A stretch of DNA of 64,000 nucleotides, from NCBI GenBank assembly GCA_947497145.1, contig CANMFQ010000009.1, positions 1 to 64,000 of the forward strand, in the 5' to 3' direction. Shown here piece by piece: positions 31,302-40,622 of this stretch. The notes under the pieces were generated by a model that ran no database searches, was not told the DNA's origin, and worked only from the letters and a program-made list of their open reading frames with translations. Position 1 is the stretch's first letter. Every line of letters begins with the position of its first letter. The stretch comes from an uncultured Flavobacteriaceae bacterium (lineage in GTDB: Bacteria; Bacteroidota; Bacteroidia; Flavobacteriales; Flavobacteriaceae). The translations under genes were made by a program, and so were the position numbers.

Positions 31302-31934
31302 TTGCACAAAATGATGGATATTCCTCAAAACAAATTTTCTTGCCCACCTTGGAAAAATTCGCCTGTTGAAATGTACACAGGTGACAATTTTTCAGAAGAT
31401 TTTTTAGTTGATATAGCAAACGACATCAGTCCTACGTCAAATGAAGATTTGTCGTTATTAGGACACGAAATTCTTTTAAAAAATCTAGTTTTTGAAAGAA
31501 TCATTTTACCCAACTTACGAAAAAAGCTAGATTGGAGCAAAATCAATATGGGCTTACTACCCAATGCTTTTAATGCTCTTAAAGAAGAAGCTATTAATCA
31601 AATAACAGTATCAGGAAGTCGTATTACCTTAAAACTTTTTGCTGATTTTGACGAACACAATACATCAAAAGTAAAAATAATATGCAACAATATTATTGAT
31701 GCACTTTTACTGCAAAATCTATTTCGAACTCCTACAAAAAAGGAATTAAACGATTTTGACAAAGAAGATTACTTAGTTTATGTTTCTTTAGATCCTAATT
31801 TTGTCGACAACACTGGAAAAACAGTTAACATAAATGTACAAACTAAAGAAATTGTTATTCGAAGCGGGCAATATTTAGAAACAATGGATTTGGGTATTTT
31901 CTTTGTTATTAATCAGCTCTTGTTTAATAAATAA
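31302..31934 (+). CDS. Hypothetical protein upstream of the kinase array
   Basis: A 210-residue soluble protein with no signal peptide or membrane segment and no domain that I recognise. It starts at one of three close Met (MHKMMDIPQ). Visible segments are SCPPWKNSPVEMYTGDNF and, in the second half, alternating strand-like blocks ending MDLGIFFVINQLLFNK. It reads in the same direction as the four kinases 240 bases downstream, but nothing ties it to them except position. Confidence 0.7.
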   Translation: MHKMMDIPQNKFSCPPWKNSPVEMYTGDNFSEDFLVDIANDISPTSNEDLSLLGHEILLKNLVFERIILPNLRKKLDWSKINMGLLPNAFNALKEEAINQITVSGSRITLKLFADFDEHNTSKVKIICNNIIDALLLQNLFRTPTKKELNDFDKEDYLVYVSLDPNFVDNTGKTVNINVQTKEIVIRSGQYLETMDLGIFFVINQLLFNK

Positions 31935-32177: not shown

Positions 32178-33911
32178 ATGAATTTTAAATTCAAAATACG
32201 AACTACAATTGCAATGCTACTCATTTGCTCTAGTATACAATCGCAAGAAATTCATACTAGAGCAGAGGTAGACACCCTTCTCGTACGTGCATACAATTAC
32301 ATTATGGCAGATAGTATATTGCAAGCTTTTAATACGATCAATAAAAGCTTAGAAATAGCTACCAAAAACAACTATCGAGAACAGGAAGCTTCTTGTTATA
32401 ACCATCTTTCTGGCTTGTATATAAGAATACAGCCCAATATGGAAACCTCGGTAAATTATCTTAAAAAATCATTGAGTATATATCAAGAACTCGGCTTAAA
32501 AGAACGTGTAGATGTTATGTATACCAATATGTTGTACATCTATTACAAGTTAAACAGACAAAAAAAGTTTGATAGTATTTCAAAAATAGTCACTAAACTT
32601 CAAACCGAAAATCAAATCAGTCTATTTTATCTCTCCGAGTATTTGGTTCTCAATGCGCATGATAACACCAAAAACTTTCAATTAATTGACTCAATAACAA
32701 GAGATAAAATTAAGTTAATAGAAACATACAAATTCACTACTACAGAAGAAAAAACTAACGAAAAGTATATCAAAAATAACATGCTTTACACGATGAAAAT
32801 ATATCGTGGCGTTGCATTAATTGCATTAAATAAAAACGCAGAAGAAGCAAACAAATTATTTAATGAAGTGTTGGCTATTGACCTTGAAAACCAGCTTTTT
32901 AACACTACGCGCTTTCAAAGAAAAATTATAGAACTCTATACGGCTAAGCAAAAGTACTTTTCAAATTTCAAGAAAAATAAAGATTCATTAATCAAATATT
33001 ACAAAAAGAAAGATTCGTTAAGGAGCATTATTTTGGCTGCAGAAGAAATTCTTAATCTAAAAAATTATAGATACGTTAGCAAAAACCTGAAGCAACAAGA
33101 GGAAATGAAATCGCTTCAATTGCTACATAAAAAAAATGATAAACTACGAAAATTGAGTAGTTTAACCATCATACTAATTTTTAATGCATTACTAATTTCA
33201 ACCTTTTTTGTTCTTTATTTTAGAAAAGCAAATAAACGAATAACCAAAAGCTTAAACGGAAAAAAGGAAATAGAGTTAAAATTAGGCAATATTCAAAAAG
33301 CAATCGCTTCTGATTTACATGATAATTTTGGCAATAGAATTTCTGGTATACTATCATCTTCAGAAATTGTAAAAGAACTCATTAATCAAAAACAAACCAA
33401 AACCACCTACTTTGTAAAATACCTAAACAACTTAAATCAAGGTGTAGGCAACCTACTCTTTGATTTAAAAGATCTTATTTGGTCATACGAAGTAAACAAT
33501 GATGCTGTGGTAAAGCTGTCAGATAGAATGCAACACTATGCTAATGAGTTTGCAAACAACTATGCCATTAAAATTTTATATAATCATACTATTTATAACG
33601 AGGCTGTTGTTTTACCACACCTATGGAATAGGCAAATATTATTAACCTACAAAGAAGCTATTAATAACGCATATAAACACGCACAAACTGATGTTATAGA
33701 AACCTATTTAAGCTTAAACGCTTCAAATATAATTGAAGTAAAAATAATAGATAATGGTATTGGTTTTTCGCAAGAAAACAAAAAGCTATCAGGAGTATCT
33801 AATATGAAGAAAAGAGCCGAATCGATTGGCTGTAAACTTCACATAAACACTATGAATGGTAAAGGAACAGAAATTATTCTCATTGGTAAAATACCTCCAA
33901 ACATAACCTAG
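32178..33911 (+). CDS. TPR sensor histidine kinase, array member 1 (intact)
   Basis: A 577-residue sensor kinase. A signal peptide (to about residue 22) leads into a periplasmic helical domain with TPR-like repeats (about 27-300), one membrane helix (about 327-348) and a cytoplasmic HisKA_3-like kinase. The phospho-acceptor is H381 in SDLHDNFGNR, followed by D382. The ATP domain has an intact N-box (E493, N497, K500, H501), DNGIGF (525-530), GVSNMKKRA and GKGTEI. The segment LFDLKDLIWSY is typical of LuxR-regulator partners. It is the first of four tandem paralogs and the only one, with the second, that has a full set of catalytic motifs. Confidence 0.9.
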   Translation: MNFKFKIRTTIAMLLICSSIQSQEIHTRAEVDTLLVRAYNYIMADSILQAFNTINKSLEIATKNNYREQEASCYNHLSGLYIRIQPNMETSVNYLKKSLSIYQELGLKERVDVMYTNMLYIYYKLNRQKKFDSISKIVTKLQTENQISLFYLSEYLVLNAHDNTKNFQLIDSITRDKIKLIETYKFTTTEEKTNEKYIKNNMLYTMKIYRGVALIALNKNAEEANKLFNEVLAIDLENQLFNTTRFQRKIIELYTAKQKYFSNFKKNKDSLIKYYKKKDSLRSIILAAEEILNLKNYRYVSKNLKQQEEMKSLQLLHKKNDKLRKLSSLTIILIFNALLISTFFVLYFRKANKRITKSLNGKKEIELKLGNIQKAIASDLHDNFGNRISGILSSSEIVKELINQKQTKTTYFVKYLNNLNQGVGNLLFDLKDLIWSYEVNNDAVVKLSDRMQHYANEFANNYAIKILYNHTIYNEAVVLPHLWNRQILLTYKEAINNAYKHAQTDVIETYLSLNASNIIEVKIIDNGIGFSQENKKLSGVSNMKKRAESIGCKLHINTMNGKGTEIILIGKIPPNIT

Positions 33912-34057
33912 CTTTTAAATGAACATGATAAAAAACAACTATTTGGAAAATGAACCAAATAAAACTACCATCAGTCTTTCATAAAAAAAGATCGTTACAT
34001 GATTTAATTAAGTATTTTACATAAACATAGATAATCCATTTTTTAAAAGATATCAAT

Positions 34058-35863
34058 TTGAATTTAGTTGTAAAAAATAACATGCTACATAAGACCAAAC
34101 ATTGTTTTTTGCGCTTACTTTCTGTTATATCTAAAACTATTAAGAGTAAAACATGCTTATTGGTTTTACTACTGCTATCATGTGTGAGCACAAGCGCTCA
34201 AAAAACTACTACCAGAGCTCAGGTAGACAGTATGCTAGCAGAGGCATACAACAATATATTAATTGACAGTCTAATACCTGCCCTTGGTTTAATAAACAAA
34301 AGCTTAAACATATCAATTAAAAACAACTATCGATTTCAAGAAGCGACCTGTTACAATCACTTTTCTGGTATATATGTCAACTTAGAGCCAGATATGGATA
34401 CCGCACTAAACTATCTAAAAAAATCATTACACATATACCAAGAATTAGATTTAGAATTTAGAGTTATCACAACCTACACCAATATGACCTATATTTATAA
34501 ATCTTTAAATAGGCAAAAAGAGTTTGACAGTTTGGCTAAAATAGCTGCTCGGATGATTAAAAAACGAAATTCGTTTCACACATTTTTCTTAGCAGAATCA
34601 ATTATCTTCAATGCTTATGACAATACCAAAAATTACAAAATTATTGACTCTGTCACCTTAAGCACCCTTGACAAACTAAAAACATTTCCTTTTAAATCAA
34701 ACAAATCAAGAGAACATAAAAAGGTTATTACAGGTTTAATGCAATGCTTGGTAAAAATGTATCGTGGTATGGCATTAATTGAATTAAACAAAGACTACGA
34801 AGAAGCAAATAGATTGTTTGACGAGGCACTTATTTCTAATAGCAGAAACAATTTTATTAAAACTACCCGCTATCGAAAAAAATTCATAAATCTATACATT
34901 TATAAGCTGAGATATTTTTCATCGTACAAAAAAAACAAAGACTCACTTATTAAATATCACAAAAAAAAAGATTCCCTACAAACCCTAATTCTAGATGCTG
35001 AAGAAATTACAAATGTAAAAAACTACAAATATGCGACCCAAAACATAAAGCAACTAGAACAAATGAAATCGCTTGAAACTTTACATAAAAAAAATGTAGC
35101 GTTGAGAAATTTGAGTAATGTTACTATCGTAATGGTTTTAGTCGCTCTCATGATTTCAACATTTTTTATTATTTATTACCGAAAAGCAAACAAACGAATT
35201 ACAAAAACCTTACATGATAAAAAAGAAATTGAATCTAAATTAAACAATATTCAAAAGGCAATAGCCTCAGACCTACACGATAATTTTGGCAACAGAATTT
35301 CTGGCATTTTATCTTCATCAGAAATTGTAAAAGAACTGATAAATCAAAAACAGACCAAAACCAAATACTTTATAAAATACCTTACTAATTTAGATCAAGG
35401 GGTGAGTAATTTACTATTCGATTTAAAAGATCTCATTTGGTCTTATGAGAAAAACAACGACGCTATTGTAAAACTCTCTGATAGAATGCAGCACCATGTA
35501 ATGGAGTTTTCTAACAATTACCATATTAACATTAGCTACCAAAGCACTATTCATAATAAAAATGTAGTACTACCCCACCTTTGGAACAGACAAATATTGC
35601 TCACTTTTAAAGAAGCCATTAACAATGCCTACAAACATGCAAATGCAGATGTTATAAACACTCATTTGAGCTTAAATAAATTCAATATTCTTGAAGTAAA
35701 AATCACAGACAATGGTGTTGGTTTTAAACCTGAAAACATAAAACTATCAGGTGTTTCTAATATGAAAAAAAGAGCTCAATCAATTGGTTGCGATCTACAT
35801 ATAAATACCGCTCCTGATAAAGGAACAGAAATAATACTCATTGGTAAAATAGTACATAACTAA
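34058..35863 (+). CDS. TPR sensor histidine kinase, array member 2 (intact)
   Basis: A 601-residue paralog with the same order: N-terminal signal or anchor (hydrophobic core about 31-47), TPR-like sensor, one membrane helix (about 353-373) and kinase. H407-D408 lie in SDLHDNFGNR, and the N-box EAINNAYKHA, DNGVGF, GVSNMKKRA and KGTEI are intact. The start is TTG at 34058; ATG at 34082 is possible, but the TTG region is conserved in member 3, which has no early ATG. The kinase core is nearly identical in protein to member 1 although the codons differ widely. Confidence 0.88.
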   Translation: MNLVVKNNMLHKTKHCFLRLLSVISKTIKSKTCLLVLLLLSCVSTSAQKTTTRAQVDSMLAEAYNNILIDSLIPALGLINKSLNISIKNNYRFQEATCYNHFSGIYVNLEPDMDTALNYLKKSLHIYQELDLEFRVITTYTNMTYIYKSLNRQKEFDSLAKIAARMIKKRNSFHTFFLAESIIFNAYDNTKNYKIIDSVTLSTLDKLKTFPFKSNKSREHKKVITGLMQCLVKMYRGMALIELNKDYEEANRLFDEALISNSRNNFIKTTRYRKKFINLYIYKLRYFSSYKKNKDSLIKYHKKKDSLQTLILDAEEITNVKNYKYATQNIKQLEQMKSLETLHKKNVALRNLSNVTIVMVLVALMISTFFIIYYRKANKRITKTLHDKKEIESKLNNIQKAIASDLHDNFGNRISGILSSSEIVKELINQKQTKTKYFIKYLTNLDQGVSNLLFDLKDLIWSYEKNNDAIVKLSDRMQHHVMEFSNNYHINISYQSTIHNKNVVLPHLWNRQILLTFKEAINNAYKHANADVINTHLSLNKFNILEVKITDNGVGFKPENIKLSGVSNMKKRAQSIGCDLHINTAPDKGTEIILIGKIVHN

Positions 35864-35994
35864 ATTATGCTTTTAACAATTACTAAAACTTTAGCGCAAA
35901 AAAATAGCAATAGAATCAGCTACCATCGATATAAACCAATTTTTATGAACCTTTAAACTTGTATTTACTTTAATAACCCCCATTATTAAACGCT

Positions 35995-37797
35995 TTGAAC
36001 ATAGTTTTAAAACATAGTATTCTGTATAGCGCGCGAAAACTTATCTTGTCGTTATTTGATAGTTTTTTCAGCCATCAAAACCACAAAATATGTCTCTATG
36101 TTTTAGTGCTACTAGCGAGCTCATTGGTACAATCGCAAAAAACTACTTCGAGTGTTACCGTTGACAGCATGCTTAAAAAGGCCTATAATAACATACTAAT
36201 TGATAGTATGATACCCGCCCTTGATTTATTAAAAAAAAGTCTGAAAATATCTATTGAAAATAACTACCGCCTTCAAGAAGCTAACTGTTACAATCACTTT
36301 TCTGGCATATATGTTCGCTTAGAACCCGACATGGATACTTCTATAAACTATCTTAAAAAATCATTGCGCATTTATCAAGAATTGGGTTTAGAAGATAGAG
36401 TAATTACCACATACTCAAATATGACCCATATTTATAAAAATTTAAATCGACAAAAAGAGTTTGATAGTGTGGCTAAAATAGCTGCCAAGATGATAGAAAA
36501 GCAAAATTCATTTCGTACATTTTTTCTTGCAGAATCAATTATTTTCAATGCCCACGACAATACCAAAGACTACAATACTATTGATTCTGTAACCCTAAGT
36601 GCACTAAACAAACTAAAAACATTTAAATTTAAAACTACCGAAGCAAAAAAACATAAAAAAGCCATTACTGGTATAATGCAGTGTTTGTTAAAAATGTATC
36701 GTGGAATATCTTTAATAGAATTAAAAAAAGAGTATGCTGAAGCAAATAGGCTCTTTGACGAGGTATTGGCTACAAATGCCAAAAATAATTTTATTAAAAC
36801 CACGCGTTATCGAAAAAAATTTATCGATGTATACGTTTATAAGCAACGCTATTTCTCAGCATACAAAAAAAACAAAGACTCACTTATCAAATATCTCAAA
36901 AGAAAAGACTCACTTCAAACAATCATTTTAGCTGCCGAAGAAATTGTAAACCTAAAAAACTACAAATATGCTACGCAAAATATAAAGCACGTAGAAAAAA
37001 TGAAATCTCTTAAAACTTTACAAAAGCAAAATGTAAAGTATAAATACCTCACTGATTTAACTGTAATATTGGTTGTACTTGCCCTTGTTATTGCCTCCTT
37101 TTTTATTCTATATTATAAAAAAGCAAATAAACGCATTACAAAAAGCTTACATGACAAAAGAGAAATTGAATCTAAACTACATAATATTCAAAAAGCAATA
37201 GCCTCAGATTTGCATAACAACTTTGGCAATAAAATTTCGGGTATTTTATCTTCATCTGAAATTGTGAAAGAACTCATTGATCAAAAACAAACTAAAACTA
37301 CCTATTTTTTAAAGTATCTTAACAATTTAGATCATGGGGTAAGTAATTTGCTATTCGATTTAAAAGATCTTATATGGTCTTATGAGAGTAACAATAATGC
37401 TATTGTAAAACTGTCACAACGAATGAACCAATATGTGAACGAGTTTGCCAACAATTACAATATTGTTGTTAATTTTGAAACCGCTATTTACGACAAAAGT
37501 GTTGCCCTACCCCATCTTTGGAATAGACAAATATTACTCACATTTAAAGAAGCAATAAACAATGCGTATAAACATTCAGAAGCTACTGTAATAGATACGT
37601 ATTTAAGCTTAAATGAATCAAATATTATTCAAGTAAAAATAATCGACAACGGTATTGGTTTCAAACAAGGCAACATCAAACTATCAGGAATTGCGAACAT
37701 GAAAAAAAGAGCCGAATCTATAGGTTGTGAGATAGACATCAAAACCGTAATTGGCAAGGAAACCAAAATAGTTTTAACAGGCATAATTCCAAAATAA
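35995..37797 (+). CDS. TPR sensor histidine kinase, array member 3 (altered catalytic residues)
   Basis: A 600-residue paralog closest to member 2. The acceptor H407 is kept, but the next residue, the catalytic acid in this family, is N408 (SDLHNNFGNK). The N-box and DNGIGF are intact, while the last G-box reads GKETKI instead of GKGTEI. The start is TTG, with no ATG before residue 59, and the upstream bases match those of member 2. It may bind ATP but have lower kinase or phosphatase activity, or may work as a partner in mixed dimers. Confidence 0.85.
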   Translation: MNIVLKHSILYSARKLILSLFDSFFSHQNHKICLYVLVLLASSLVQSQKTTSSVTVDSMLKKAYNNILIDSMIPALDLLKKSLKISIENNYRLQEANCYNHFSGIYVRLEPDMDTSINYLKKSLRIYQELGLEDRVITTYSNMTHIYKNLNRQKEFDSVAKIAAKMIEKQNSFRTFFLAESIIFNAHDNTKDYNTIDSVTLSALNKLKTFKFKTTEAKKHKKAITGIMQCLLKMYRGISLIELKKEYAEANRLFDEVLATNAKNNFIKTTRYRKKFIDVYVYKQRYFSAYKKNKDSLIKYLKRKDSLQTIILAAEEIVNLKNYKYATQNIKHVEKMKSLKTLQKQNVKYKYLTDLTVILVVLALVIASFFILYYKKANKRITKSLHDKREIESKLHNIQKAIASDLHNNFGNKISGILSSSEIVKELIDQKQTKTTYFLKYLNNLDHGVSNLLFDLKDLIWSYESNNNAIVKLSQRMNQYVNEFANNYNIVVNFETAIYDKSVALPHLWNRQILLTFKEAINNAYKHSEATVIDTYLSLNESNIIQVKIIDNGIGFKQGNIKLSGIANMKKRAESIGCEIDIKTVIGKETKIVLTGIIPK

Positions 37798-38184
37798 ACG
37801 ATACTATTTTAACCAAAAAATACGTATCAAAAATGCCCTTAAAAAAAGAAAAAACATAACCATAAGCCCTAAGTTAAACAATAAGAGATAACACTAATAA
37901 ATCAAAAAATGATACCTGTAAGCAATCAAAACCAATAAAATATTAGCCTATTATACTTACTATAATTTTGCTAATACAATAGTGTTGATTACCTTAATAG
38001 TACGTTATTTTTTTTAAACACTATCAAAAGTAGTTACCTATCGCTTTTTACATAGTAAAATAAATATCATTTCAACCATATAAATAAACACCAGCTACTG
38101 ACCAACATTAAAAAAAGTCTCAAAACAACCTATTATATTCAATAACCAGAATCATATTATAATCGTTTTCAGTATTTATTATTT
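37798..38184. other. Gap between kinase members 3 and 4
   Basis: 387 bases, very AT-rich and low in complexity, with no open frame, terminator or clear promoter. It is the longest spacer in the array (the others are 104-146 bases), so member 4 may have its own promoter here. Confidence 0.4.
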
Positions 38185-39909
38185 ATGCGTTTAAACGTCA
38201 AAATACTATTTTTAATTATCGCATTAATTACCTGCAATTGTATCTATTCGCAAGAAAGTTACACTAGGGGTCAAGTTGATAGTTTACTTATGGAGGTTTT
38301 TAAACATAGTAGAGTTGATGACATGTTACCTGCCTTAAAACTCCTTAACAAAAGTCTTGACATATCAATTAAAAATAACTACAAAGAACAAGAAGCCACT
38401 TGCTATATTCATTTTTCTAGCTTCTTTGCCAAGTTAGGTACCGAAATGGATACTGCTTTAGATTATCTAAAAAAAGCAAAAGCCATATATAACGAGTTAG
38501 GCTATGAAGAAAAGACCATTAATGTTGACATAAACATGGCATATATTTATCATAAGATGAACGAACAAAAAAAGTTTGACAGTATATGTAAAGTCACTGC
38601 TGATCTTATCAACAAAACAAAAACCTATCATACTTTTTACCTTACTGATATATTACTTTTTAATGCATTACAAACTACCAAAGACTATGCTAAAATAGAT
38701 TCTTTGACGAATGATTTTTTCAAAGAAATTAAAACATTCAAATTCAATAAAAAGCACGCGAAAACACACCAAAATAGTATTCGTAATAATCTTGCTCACC
38801 TCTTTAAAATATACCGAGGCATTGCTTTAATTGAGTTAAATCAAAATCCTGCAGAAGCTAATAAACTATTCAATGATGTATTAAAAGTAAATAAAAAAAA
38901 TAATATTTTCATCAATGCGAGCCGTCAAAGAGACCTACTAAGATTATACACTTACAAAAGAAAATATTTTACAACGCATAAAAAAAATAAAGATTCTGTC
39001 TTGCATTATTACAAAAAGGCTGACTCTATACTTGACATTATTTTAGATACTGAAGAAAACTTAAAGCTAAAAAATTACCAATATGTCACCTACAATATAT
39101 CACAAAAAGCAAAATTAAAATCACTAGCAGCTTTAAATGAAAAGAATAAAAATCTTAATCAACTTCAAATTTTAGTTATTATTTTAATAGCGACTGGTCT
39201 TATCATTTCAACCTTTTTCATTGTATATTTTAGAAAAGCAAATAAGCGCATTAAAAAAACTCTTAAAGCAAAAAAAGAAGCTGAATTGAAATTAAGTACC
39301 ATTCAACAAGCAATTGTTATTGATTTACACACCAATTTTGGTAAGAAGATACCACCAATTTTGTCATCAGCAGAAATTGTAGCAGAACTCATTGATCAAA
39401 AAAAAACCACTACTACTCAATTCTTAAAATACCTTACGAGTTTGAATGAAGGTGTTGGAAATTTACTGTTCGATTTAAAAGATCTTATTTGGTCATATAA
39501 AGCAGATAATGACTCTATCGGTAAACTTACCCAAAGAATGAATCAGTATGTTTTAGAATTTACTAAAAACCACAAAATCGAAATTATTCATCAAAATACT
39601 ATTGATAATAAAACTATTGTTTTACCGCATCTATGGAATAGGCAAATTTTGCTTATCTTCAAAGAAGCAATAAATACTGCTTATAAATTTGCAAAAGCAA
39701 ATAGTATAAAAACTTATCTTAAATTAGATGAATCAAATATTTTTGAATTAAAAATCATAGACAATGGTATTGGCTTTAAAGAAAATATTACCCGACTACC
39801 AGAAATTTCAAATTTAAAAGAAAGGGCTGCGTCGATAAATTGTAAATTACATGTCGGTTATTACGAAGAAGAAGGTAACCTGATAGTCTTAAAAGGCAAA
39901 ATAACATAA
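38185..39909 (+). CDS. TPR sensor histidine kinase homolog, array member 4 (likely pseudokinase)
   Basis: A 574-residue paralog with signal peptide, TPR-like sensor, one membrane helix (about 329-349) and a kinase-like region. H382 is kept, but the acid after it is T383 (IDLHTNFGKK). The N-box Asn is replaced by T498 (EAINTAYKFA), and the Lys-His pair is Lys-Phe. The GVSNMKKRA box reads PEISNLKERA, and the final G-box is lost (YEEEGNLIVL). DNGIGF and LFDLKDLIWSY remain. It probably cannot hydrolyse ATP normally but may still receive phosphate on H382 or sense signals for the others. The response regulator follows 104 bases later. Confidence 0.85.
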   Translation: MRLNVKILFLIIALITCNCIYSQESYTRGQVDSLLMEVFKHSRVDDMLPALKLLNKSLDISIKNNYKEQEATCYIHFSSFFAKLGTEMDTALDYLKKAKAIYNELGYEEKTINVDINMAYIYHKMNEQKKFDSICKVTADLINKTKTYHTFYLTDILLFNALQTTKDYAKIDSLTNDFFKEIKTFKFNKKHAKTHQNSIRNNLAHLFKIYRGIALIELNQNPAEANKLFNDVLKVNKKNNIFINASRQRDLLRLYTYKRKYFTTHKKNKDSVLHYYKKADSILDIILDTEENLKLKNYQYVTYNISQKAKLKSLAALNEKNKNLNQLQILVIILIATGLIISTFFIVYFRKANKRIKKTLKAKKEAELKLSTIQQAIVIDLHTNFGKKIPPILSSAEIVAELIDQKKTTTTQFLKYLTSLNEGVGNLLFDLKDLIWSYKADNDSIGKLTQRMNQYVLEFTKNHKIEIIHQNTIDNKTIVLPHLWNRQILLIFKEAINTAYKFAKANSIKTYLKLDESNIFELKIIDNGIGFKENITRLPEISNLKERAASINCKLHVGYYEEEGNLIVLKGKIT

Positions 39910-40013
39910 TAGTACCATAACCGTTTAAAGCACGTCTTTCCCCAAAATGATGCAAAAAACAAAAACTATGATCTAAATTTTTATATCATACCTTAAAATC
40001 AAATATATCAAAA

Positions 40014-40622
40014 ATGAAAGTAATTGTTATCGAAGATGATTTAATACTATGTGATTCTTACAAATACTATTTTAAGTCGTATCCAGATTATACTTTAGAG
40101 GGTATATACAATCACGTAGAAGATGCACTTGAAAATTATGAGAGTACTTTTCCTGACATTATTATCAGCGACATTTCATTTCCTAATATGAATGGTGTTG
40201 ATGGCATTAAATATTTTAAAGAAAAAGACCCCAATGTTAAAATCTTGCTTGTAAGTGTTCATGACGATTTACATTGGATTAAAAGTGCATTAAAAAACGC
40301 CGCTGACGGCTATTTAACCAAACCAGTTTTAAAACATGAACTGTACAATGCACTGAACATTATAAAATATGAAGGTGCCATTTTAAGCACAGATGTCACA
40401 AAAAAAGTCATCTCTTCTTTTCAAAAGAAATCGTTGCGAATTTTCACTGATAGAGAAAAAGACATCATTGAGCTACTTAGCCAGGGTGAAACCTATAAAA
40501 GTATTGCGACTAAACTATATATCACTTCGAGTACAGTAAATTTTCACATTCAAAATATTTACCTAAAACTAAATGTAAACTCAAAGTCTGAAGCGCTAAA
40601 AATAATTCAGGAATTAGACTAG
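40014..40622 (+). CDS. NarL/LuxR-family response regulator
   Basis: A 202-residue regulator. The receiver domain has the acidic pair E7-D8-D9, phospho-acceptor D53 (IIISDISFPNMNG), S81 and K103 (YLTKP). The C-terminal LuxR helix-turn-helix reads FTDREKDIIELLSQGETYKSIATKL then STVNFHIQNIYLKL. It is the only regulator next to the four HisKA_3-like kinases and the natural target for all of them. It most likely acts as a DNA-binding dimer after phosphorylation. Confidence 0.93.
   Translation: MKVIVIEDDLILCDSYKYYFKSYPDYTLEGIYNHVEDALENYESTFPDIIISDISFPNMNGVDGIKYFKEKDPNVKILLVSVHDDLHWIKSALKNAADGYLTKPVLKHELYNALNIIKYEGAILSTDVTKKVISSFQKKSLRIFTDREKDIIELLSQGETYKSIATKLYITSSTVNFHIQNIYLKLNVNSKSEALKIIQELD

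Follow-up and report, generated by a model that had tools for sequence, protein, structure and literature searches.

Four tandem sensor histidine kinases with differing catalytic residues beside a single response regulator in an uncultured Flavobacteriaceae bacterium

To our knowledge, natural histidine pseudokinases of bacteria have been studied in only a few cases. Several described systems come close to the one reported here. In group A Streptococcus two sensor kinases, FasB and FasC, are encoded together with a single regulator, FasA, and a kinase heterodimer was detected by two-hybrid; the FasC histidine is needed, and under plasmid overexpression FasC can do without its HATPase domain (PMC12675982). 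The paralogous kinases ChrS and HrrS of Corynebacterium glutamicum also heterodimerise, and a form dead in the catalytic and ATP-binding (CA) domain raises output via the partner kinase; truncated ChrS gave no significant two-hybrid signal (PMC9491836). In DivL/CckA and RetS/GacS an inactive or modulating kinase controls another by direct contact (PMC12189002, PMC9491836). The locus described here lies within positions 1 to 64,000 of contig CANMFQ010000009.1 (assembly GCA_947497145.1, an uncultured Flavobacteriaceae bacterium), a stretch referred to as the window, and consists of four open reading frames (ORFs) of 577, 601, 600 and 574 amino acids, the histidine kinases HK1 to HK4, followed by a response regulator of 202 amino acids, all on the plus strand. 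With somewhat better than even confidence, this array is read as a working system in which many sensors serve one regulator and HK3 and HK4 form mixed dimers with either HK1 or HK2. We know of no tandem multi-copy array for DivL/CckA or RetS/GacS.

The likeness to these systems is partial. FasB and FasC carry six putative transmembrane domains each and are two kinases against the four of the window (PMC12675982), while the ChrS pseudokinase arose by frameshift in laboratory evolution and concerns two separate two-component systems, unlike the window (PMC9491836). Within the family Flavobacteriaceae, tandem pairs of kinases with tetratricopeptide repeat (TPR) sensors and one regulator occur in many genomes. 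Those at loci L076-L088 resemble the window in having TPR kinases upstream of one LuxR-type regulator (REC and GerE domains) on one strand, but comprise two kinases, both intact in 13/13 loci, of another type (HDNIG[AS]Q).

The kinases HK1 (32178..33911), HK2 (34058..35863), HK3 (35995..37797) and HK4 (38185..39909) are followed by the regulator (40014..40622), which bears out the coordinates, order and strand given in an earlier note on this DNA; HK2 and HK3 begin at TTG, a mechanical start. All four have helical, TPR-like sensors (Pfam TPR_12, below cut-off) and one hydrophobic segment ahead of the kinase module in a hydropathy scan, the module comprising the dimerisation and histidine phosphotransfer (DHp) and CA domains. 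The single helix of the earlier note is thus recovered in each gene; its signal peptides stand as read by eye, and in the same scan the N-terminus passes the hydropathy threshold in HK4 only. Relative to HK1, identity falls from 63% (HK2) and 61% (HK3) to 53% (HK4).

HK1 and HK2 have complete catalytic motifs: HDNFGN, EAINNAYKH, DNG[IV]GF, LSG and a last G-box of GKGT or DKGT. The acceptor histidine is present in all four, as His381 in HK1 (codon 33318..33320), His407 in HK2 (35276..35278), His407 in HK3 (codon pair with Asn408, 37213..37218) and His382 in HK4 (with Thr383, 39328..39333), and the residue after it, His+1, is Asp, Asp, Asn and Thr in turn, as had been noted. HK3 reads HNNFGN and ends its last G-box as GKET, its N-box, D-box and remaining motifs being intact. 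In HK4 the His box is HTNFGK, followed by Pro-Pro in the first DHp helix, the N-box is EAINTAYKF, with Thr498 (39676..39678) replacing the Asn, the lid is LPE and the last G-box is EEGN. The earlier statements that the N-box Asn is missing only from gene 4, and that the last G-box is altered in gene 3 and gone in gene 4, therefore hold. Also missing from HK4 are the Gly of the lid, where LSG has become LPE, the Asn at the HisKA_3 phosphatase position (H+5, now Lys) and the N-box His; the D-box is unbroken in all four kinases (DNGIGF in HK4). HK1 and HK2 are by motif HisKA_3-type kinases, with an acceptor His, an acid and an HATPase_c domain. HK3 and HK4, with Asn or Thr at His+1 and no HisKA_3 match at E<=1, are not, and descend from such kinases in the kinase tree. 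At that threshold the Pfam matches to HisKA_3 are confined to HK1 and HK2 (16.9 and 18.4 bits, under the 24-bit cut-off), and each of the four kinases matches HATPase_c, HK2 alone above the cut-off (29.3) and HK1 just below it (25).

Such losses are unusual among related kinases. Among 115 HisKA_3-like kinases scored outside the window (loci L075-L090 and L095-L172), 114 keep the His, 115 the His+1 acid, 114 the N-box Asn and 108 the last Gly. Those that depart at the His and N-box are the two kinases of one locus, L160, and without three kinases of the window's own clade, 112/112 retain His, acid and N-box Asn. The last Gly is absent from 7/115, so that its change in HK3 alone is not diagnostic. 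One of the two patterns used to fetch L095-L172 includes HD, and some loci are the same genome twice (for example L089/L100, L090/L129 and L075/L121), and therefore a second survey was based on regulators: 40 loci, one per genome, hand-picked from the regulator list regardless of kinases. This gave 40 kinase ORF hits, of which 37 are complete modules, and all 37 retain His, acid, N-box Asn and D-box Asp, although kinases degenerate beyond recognition by the profile would escape. The other three are a fragment (L382:3704-4303) and two halves of a split kinase (L401:6568-7581), both adjoining intact regulators; simple decay of such kinases therefore also occurs. Loss of the His, acid or N-box Asn is seen in 4/7 complete kinases of the window clade against 0/112 (Fisher 4e-6) and 0/37 in the regulator-based survey (Fisher 2.6e-4), tests that were post hoc and made on kinases that are not independent.

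The meaning of the HK3 change depends on the role of the acid, which the earlier note had taken to be catalytic in HisKA_3 kinases. The papers cited do not support that claim: in HisKA_3 proteins the acid after the His belongs to the motif DxxxQ, tied to phosphatase activity in NarX and to regulator contact in DesK (PMC3510030, PMC5231405), and a need for it in autokinase activity was demonstrated in HisKA kinases (CrdS and others). HK3 may therefore have lost phosphatase function, instead of or besides kinase function. Taken further, HK3 could be an active kinase that tolerates the His+1 change and lacks only the phosphatase, a one-way phospho-donor, leaving HK4 as the sole pseudokinase. The intact N-box and D-box of HK3 and the phosphatase role of the acid in NarX speak for this; the autokinase requirement in HisKA kinases, and the presence of the acid in all 112 + 37 other kinases scored, speak against it, and it is rated somewhat unlikely. 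It would be compatible with what is proposed below for HK4.

The array copies are diverged, with all-gene pS of 0.57-0.73, dS of 1.06-2.78 and dN/dS of 0.10-0.24, and all four kinase frames are open; the copies are therefore old, with every frame kept. Genes 3 and 4 are, as the earlier note had it, degenerate yet retained. On the dN branches of HK1 and HK4 the sensor gives 0.168/0.250 (1.5x), the DHp domain 0.029/0.168 (5.8x) and the CA domain 0.108/0.236 (2.2x), so it is the catalytic module of HK4 that has changed most. The DHp domains are 86-90% identical among HK1-3 and 67-70% to HK4, and the sensors 53-76% and 46-47%. That the DHp domains of HK1-3 are so much more alike than their sensors indicates that the dimer and docking faces have not become insulated. 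The 'stepwise' loss along the gene order that had been suggested is not upheld, as HK2 and HK3 are sisters in the sensor tree (99.9/96) and the order in the kinase domain is poorly supported. The HK4 model (mean predicted local distance difference test score, pLDDT, 84.8; predicted template modelling score, pTM, 0.52) is a run of helices, one of them very long, followed by a CA domain. Its best Protein Data Bank hits are DesK structures and the VraS CA domain (target TM-score 0.81). With N to T in the N-box, G to E in the lid and T at His+1 on a fold like those of DesK and VraS, HK4 is a predicted pseudokinase that retains the kinase fold in the model.

Three other genomes have a related regulator that could be phosphorylated. 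In an uncultured Polaribacter (L097) the regulator is divergent from one TPR kinase that keeps all motifs. In an Olleya metagenome-assembled genome (L160) it is convergent with two tandem kinases, OllA and OllB, which overlap by 23 bases if OllB starts at the mechanical TTG. In OllA the acceptor His is replaced by Glu and the ATP-domain motifs KEIINNFEKH, DLGKGF, NGL and KGTS are kept; OllB has a His box like that of HK1 (ASDLHDNFGNR) and lacks the N-box, D-box and Gly motifs. A frameshift was considered for this pair and rejected, because neither frame is interrupted before its end and the alignment stays in register through the CA-dead part of OllB. The OllB model (mean pLDDT 79.9) retains the strand-helix order of the HK4 CA domain. 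From these residues, the pair could phosphorylate its regulator only if the OllA CA domain acts on the OllB His, which is the logic proposed for FasB and FasC (PMC12675982). In Pfam the HATPase_c match falls to OllA alone (E 0.055) and the HisKA_3 match to OllB alone (E 0.0058); this is minor support, because the intact Polaribacter kinase likewise lacks a HisKA_3 match.

In the third genome, G078, the Asp regulator (L198) lies beside a transposase fragment (Pfam) at a contig start. Near another contig end is a 161-amino-acid kinase C-terminus with damaged D-box and Gly motifs, adjoining an ORF read as transposase-like. The fragment matches the array kinases at E 8.3e-19, against a best of 6.5e-10 in five other genomes of the regulator group. 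Kinase and regulator trees agree: the kinases of the window, Olleya and Polaribacter fall into a single clade (100/100), and so do their regulators (100/100). The window kinases group together (99/99); regulators L160 and L198 are sisters (97.8/100), with L097 placed less surely (63.9/97). Monophyly of HK3, HK4, OllA and OllB is rejected by the approximately unbiased (AU) test (p-AU 0.029), and independent origins of the window and Olleya pseudokinases are favoured by the kinase tree. Iron-sulfur genes resembling suf, read from ORF starts, lie near both the Polaribacter and the Olleya systems (L097:2195-17412, L160:12875-15475), a shared neighbourhood that hints at an old common position.

The window regulator has a REC receiver, with D8, D9, D53, Ser and Lys intact, and a GerE domain, making it of LuxR/NarL type and not a pseudo-receiver; the phospho-acceptor Asp53 is encoded at 40170..40172. 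The earlier picture of many sensors and one regulator is thereby borne out, with four TPR-sensor kinases and one complete REC-GerE protein. In the family, 78/396 genomes, its own included, match the regulator at E<=1e-30, at 44-60% identity before a drop to 41% and below; no match at E<=1e-40 was found outside the family among 395 genomes of the order. Besides that of the window, 61 regulators of the upper group were compared, among them five from the genus. Glu takes the phospho-acceptor position in 58/61 and Asp in L198, L331 and L303, and PorP/SprF and/or PD40 genes lie upstream of 59/61, the exceptions being L195 (840 upstream bases examined) and L198 (1168). Pfam confirmed PorP_SprF in 4/4 proteins tested; SPOR exceeded the cut-off in three of these and narrowly missed it in the fourth. 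PD40 was confirmed in 2/2. No same-strand kinase hit was found near the 61 in adjacent stretches of up to 7 kb; the opposite strand holds a single weak one (18 bits), at L190.

When 18 kinase-adjacent regulators serve as the outgroup and L198 is set aside, the remaining 60 form the sister group of the window regulator (97.6/100, or 98.9/100 with two taxa added). Within this sister clade Glu is found in 58/60 and PD40 and/or PorP/SprF beside 59/60. By their Glu the 58 fit the class of aspartate-less (pseudo-)receivers, from which the window regulator, a complete receiver, differs (PMC12632262). Against the 60, its GerE domain averages 64% and its REC domain 44% identity, and against the outgroup 42% and 33%; the higher GerE identity suggests that DNA targets may be shared with the Glu-type relatives. 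The PorP-linked regulators at L331:1749-2390 and L303:5839-6483 keep the phospho-Asp and have Asn as the first acid. L331 is the basal branch of the clade, the remainder being supported at 92.5/95, and is possibly an intermediate.

From the gene content, residue states and clades, the following scheme is proposed. HK1 and HK2 would be ordinary kinases, with a periplasmic TPR-like sensor, one membrane helix and the DHp and CA domains, that become phosphorylated on the His and transfer the phosphate to the regulator's Asp53. HK3 would keep its ATP site with an altered His box. HK4, its ATP site broken, would be a pseudokinase that holds, and perhaps accepts, phosphate on His382; it would resemble OllB in its retained His and dead CA domain, the working CA domains coming from HK1 and HK2. 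Pairing with HK1 or HK2, HK3 and HK4 would each add their own sensor input and bias the output between kinase and phosphatase. The regulator would be the kinase-coupled sister of the Asp-to-Glu regulators seen without kinases by PorP/SprF and PD40 genes. Since the DHp faces are alike, action of HK3 and HK4 in mixed dimers with HK1 or HK2 is the most likely mode; the mixed dimers of the earlier note are kept in that form, as an inference to which the DHp identity of 86-90% and the complementary Olleya pair point.

Several points, besides the post hoc nature of the tests above, weigh against this scheme and its parts. The faster evolution of the HK4 DHp and CA domains is also consistent with relaxed selection, and no orthologous array was found in which purifying selection on HK3 and HK4 after their losses could show. 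The HK4 model was built on 25 sequences, mostly motif-intact, and may inherit their fold. Both Olleya Pfam matches are below cut-off, and the intact Polaribacter kinase too is without HisKA_3 at E<=0.1. Monophyly of HK4 and OllB survives the AU test (p-AU 0.09), as does a window regulator nested inside the Glu clade (p 0.099). No operator of the type described below for PD40 genes was found in the window (best score 4.5, where the maximum in simple shuffles averages 9.4).

HK3 and HK4 could instead be decaying tandem duplicates, with losses due to drift and only HK1 and HK2 of consequence. HK4 is the fastest-evolving in DHp and CA, related kinases have decayed (the split L401, the fragment L382, and G078, truncated with damaged CA motifs), and 60 relatives of the regulator have no same-strand kinase in the adjacent stretches examined. 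Drift accounts poorly for four long open frames at high synonymous divergence, though 5.7% of single HK4 changes give a stop, for the retention of the acceptor His and D-box, of the sensor and of the stretches LPHLWNRQILL and NLLFDLKDLIWSY, or for losses in the Olleya pair that are complementary rather than random, and this explanation is considered unlikely. Very unlikely is a role of HK4 as a decoy, a homodimer that would bind or buffer the regulator in competition with HK1 and HK2, rather than as a heterodimer partner: HK4 does keep much DHp surface (67-70% identity) without kinase and phosphatase residues, but such a protein need not retain its His, and the Olleya pair is sensible only as a heterodimer.

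Of the 58 loci in which over 150 bases precede PD40, 45 carry the 8-mer CCTATGAA or its reverse complement upstream of that gene, where shuffles predict 0.8. A matrix built from 37 sites in 36 loci (consensus AAAACCTATGAATTtTTanTAAGtA) gives a site over the threshold of 13 bits near the mechanical PD40 start in 58/60 loci, 22 of them independent of the building of the matrix; the two without, L276 and L302, have only 57 and 1 upstream bases. Several of the sites are near-palindromic and are followed by a CTTTG- or TTTG-like element. The conserved near-palindrome at the PD40 start of loci L189-L342, ACCTATGAAnnnTTCATAAGT, is a candidate operator to which the Glu-type regulator might bind. A hit at L097 (16.8) was taken as chance, being inside a SufS-like coding sequence, and no site was found upstream of three PorP homologs of the window's own genome (L406-L408), the regions scanned in that genome. 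Where PorP and the regulator are both seen in loci L189-L342, the gap between them is about 440-1030 bp. A Glu-type regulator by PorP/PD40 is present in 5/13 other genomes of the genus, and the best match to the genus PorP in the window's own genome is 42% identical, against 57-64% in seven others.

Taken together, these loci may represent one flavobacterial two-component family at several stages of disassembly, in which pseudokinase partnership may precede kinase loss, a proposal held at a little less than even confidence. The stages would be the intact Polaribacter pair, the complementary halves of Olleya as an obligate heterodimer, the four-kinase array with pseudokinases in the window, and lastly regulators whose neighbouring kinases are lost and whose phospho-Asp has become Glu (58/60), by PorP/SprF and PD40 genes with a conserved palindrome.

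The genus is represented by 13 further genomes, not all of them complete, and the array itself was not found in any. No orthologous array was seen in a contig scan using patterns from the TPR region, in 39 genomes including the window's own, or in the 396 family and 395 order genomes with about 3 candidates scored per genome, genomes overlapping between these searches. The best kinase matches in the 396 family genomes are about 30% identical. Two hybrid kinases of the same genome (L071:3875-6100 and L072:4215-6419) carry the TPR-like sensor of the array at 21-25% identity, followed by domains read as HisKA, HATPase and receiver.

The array sits 3' of a gene that, from its sequence, we take to be htpG and of a short ORF resembling phosphoenolpyruvate (PEP) carboxykinase, and is convergent with genes on the opposite strand. 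The latter ORF, of 210 amino acids (31302-31934, plus strand), lies just upstream of the array, and its Pfam match (E 2.3e-14, positions 52-191 of 465) is confined to the N-terminal portion of ATP-type PEP carboxykinase; it is perhaps a truncated duplicate or remnant. Within the long gap between HK3 and HK4, a TAnnTTTG match (37963..37970, plus strand) weakly suggests a separate promoter for HK4 and the regulator. The pattern matches at 56 places along the same strand of the window, and sigma-70-type promoter matches are not above shuffles (56 vs 59).

Pseudokinases and kinase heterodimers are known, and neither the array, an Olleya-type pair nor a PorP-linked Glu-type regulator was found in the literature searched, in which subscription papers were poorly covered. 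At one locus, the window sets a single regulator next to copies of one kinase in intact, half-altered and CA-dead form. With the Olleya pair it provides a direct test of whether duplicated kinases first specialise as donor and acceptor halves, and of whether such specialisation precedes the loss of the kinase and the change from Asp to Glu in the regulator. The Glu-type regulators linked to PorP/SprF and PD40, with their palindrome, are in turn a lead on the control of surface and type IX-linked genes in the family.

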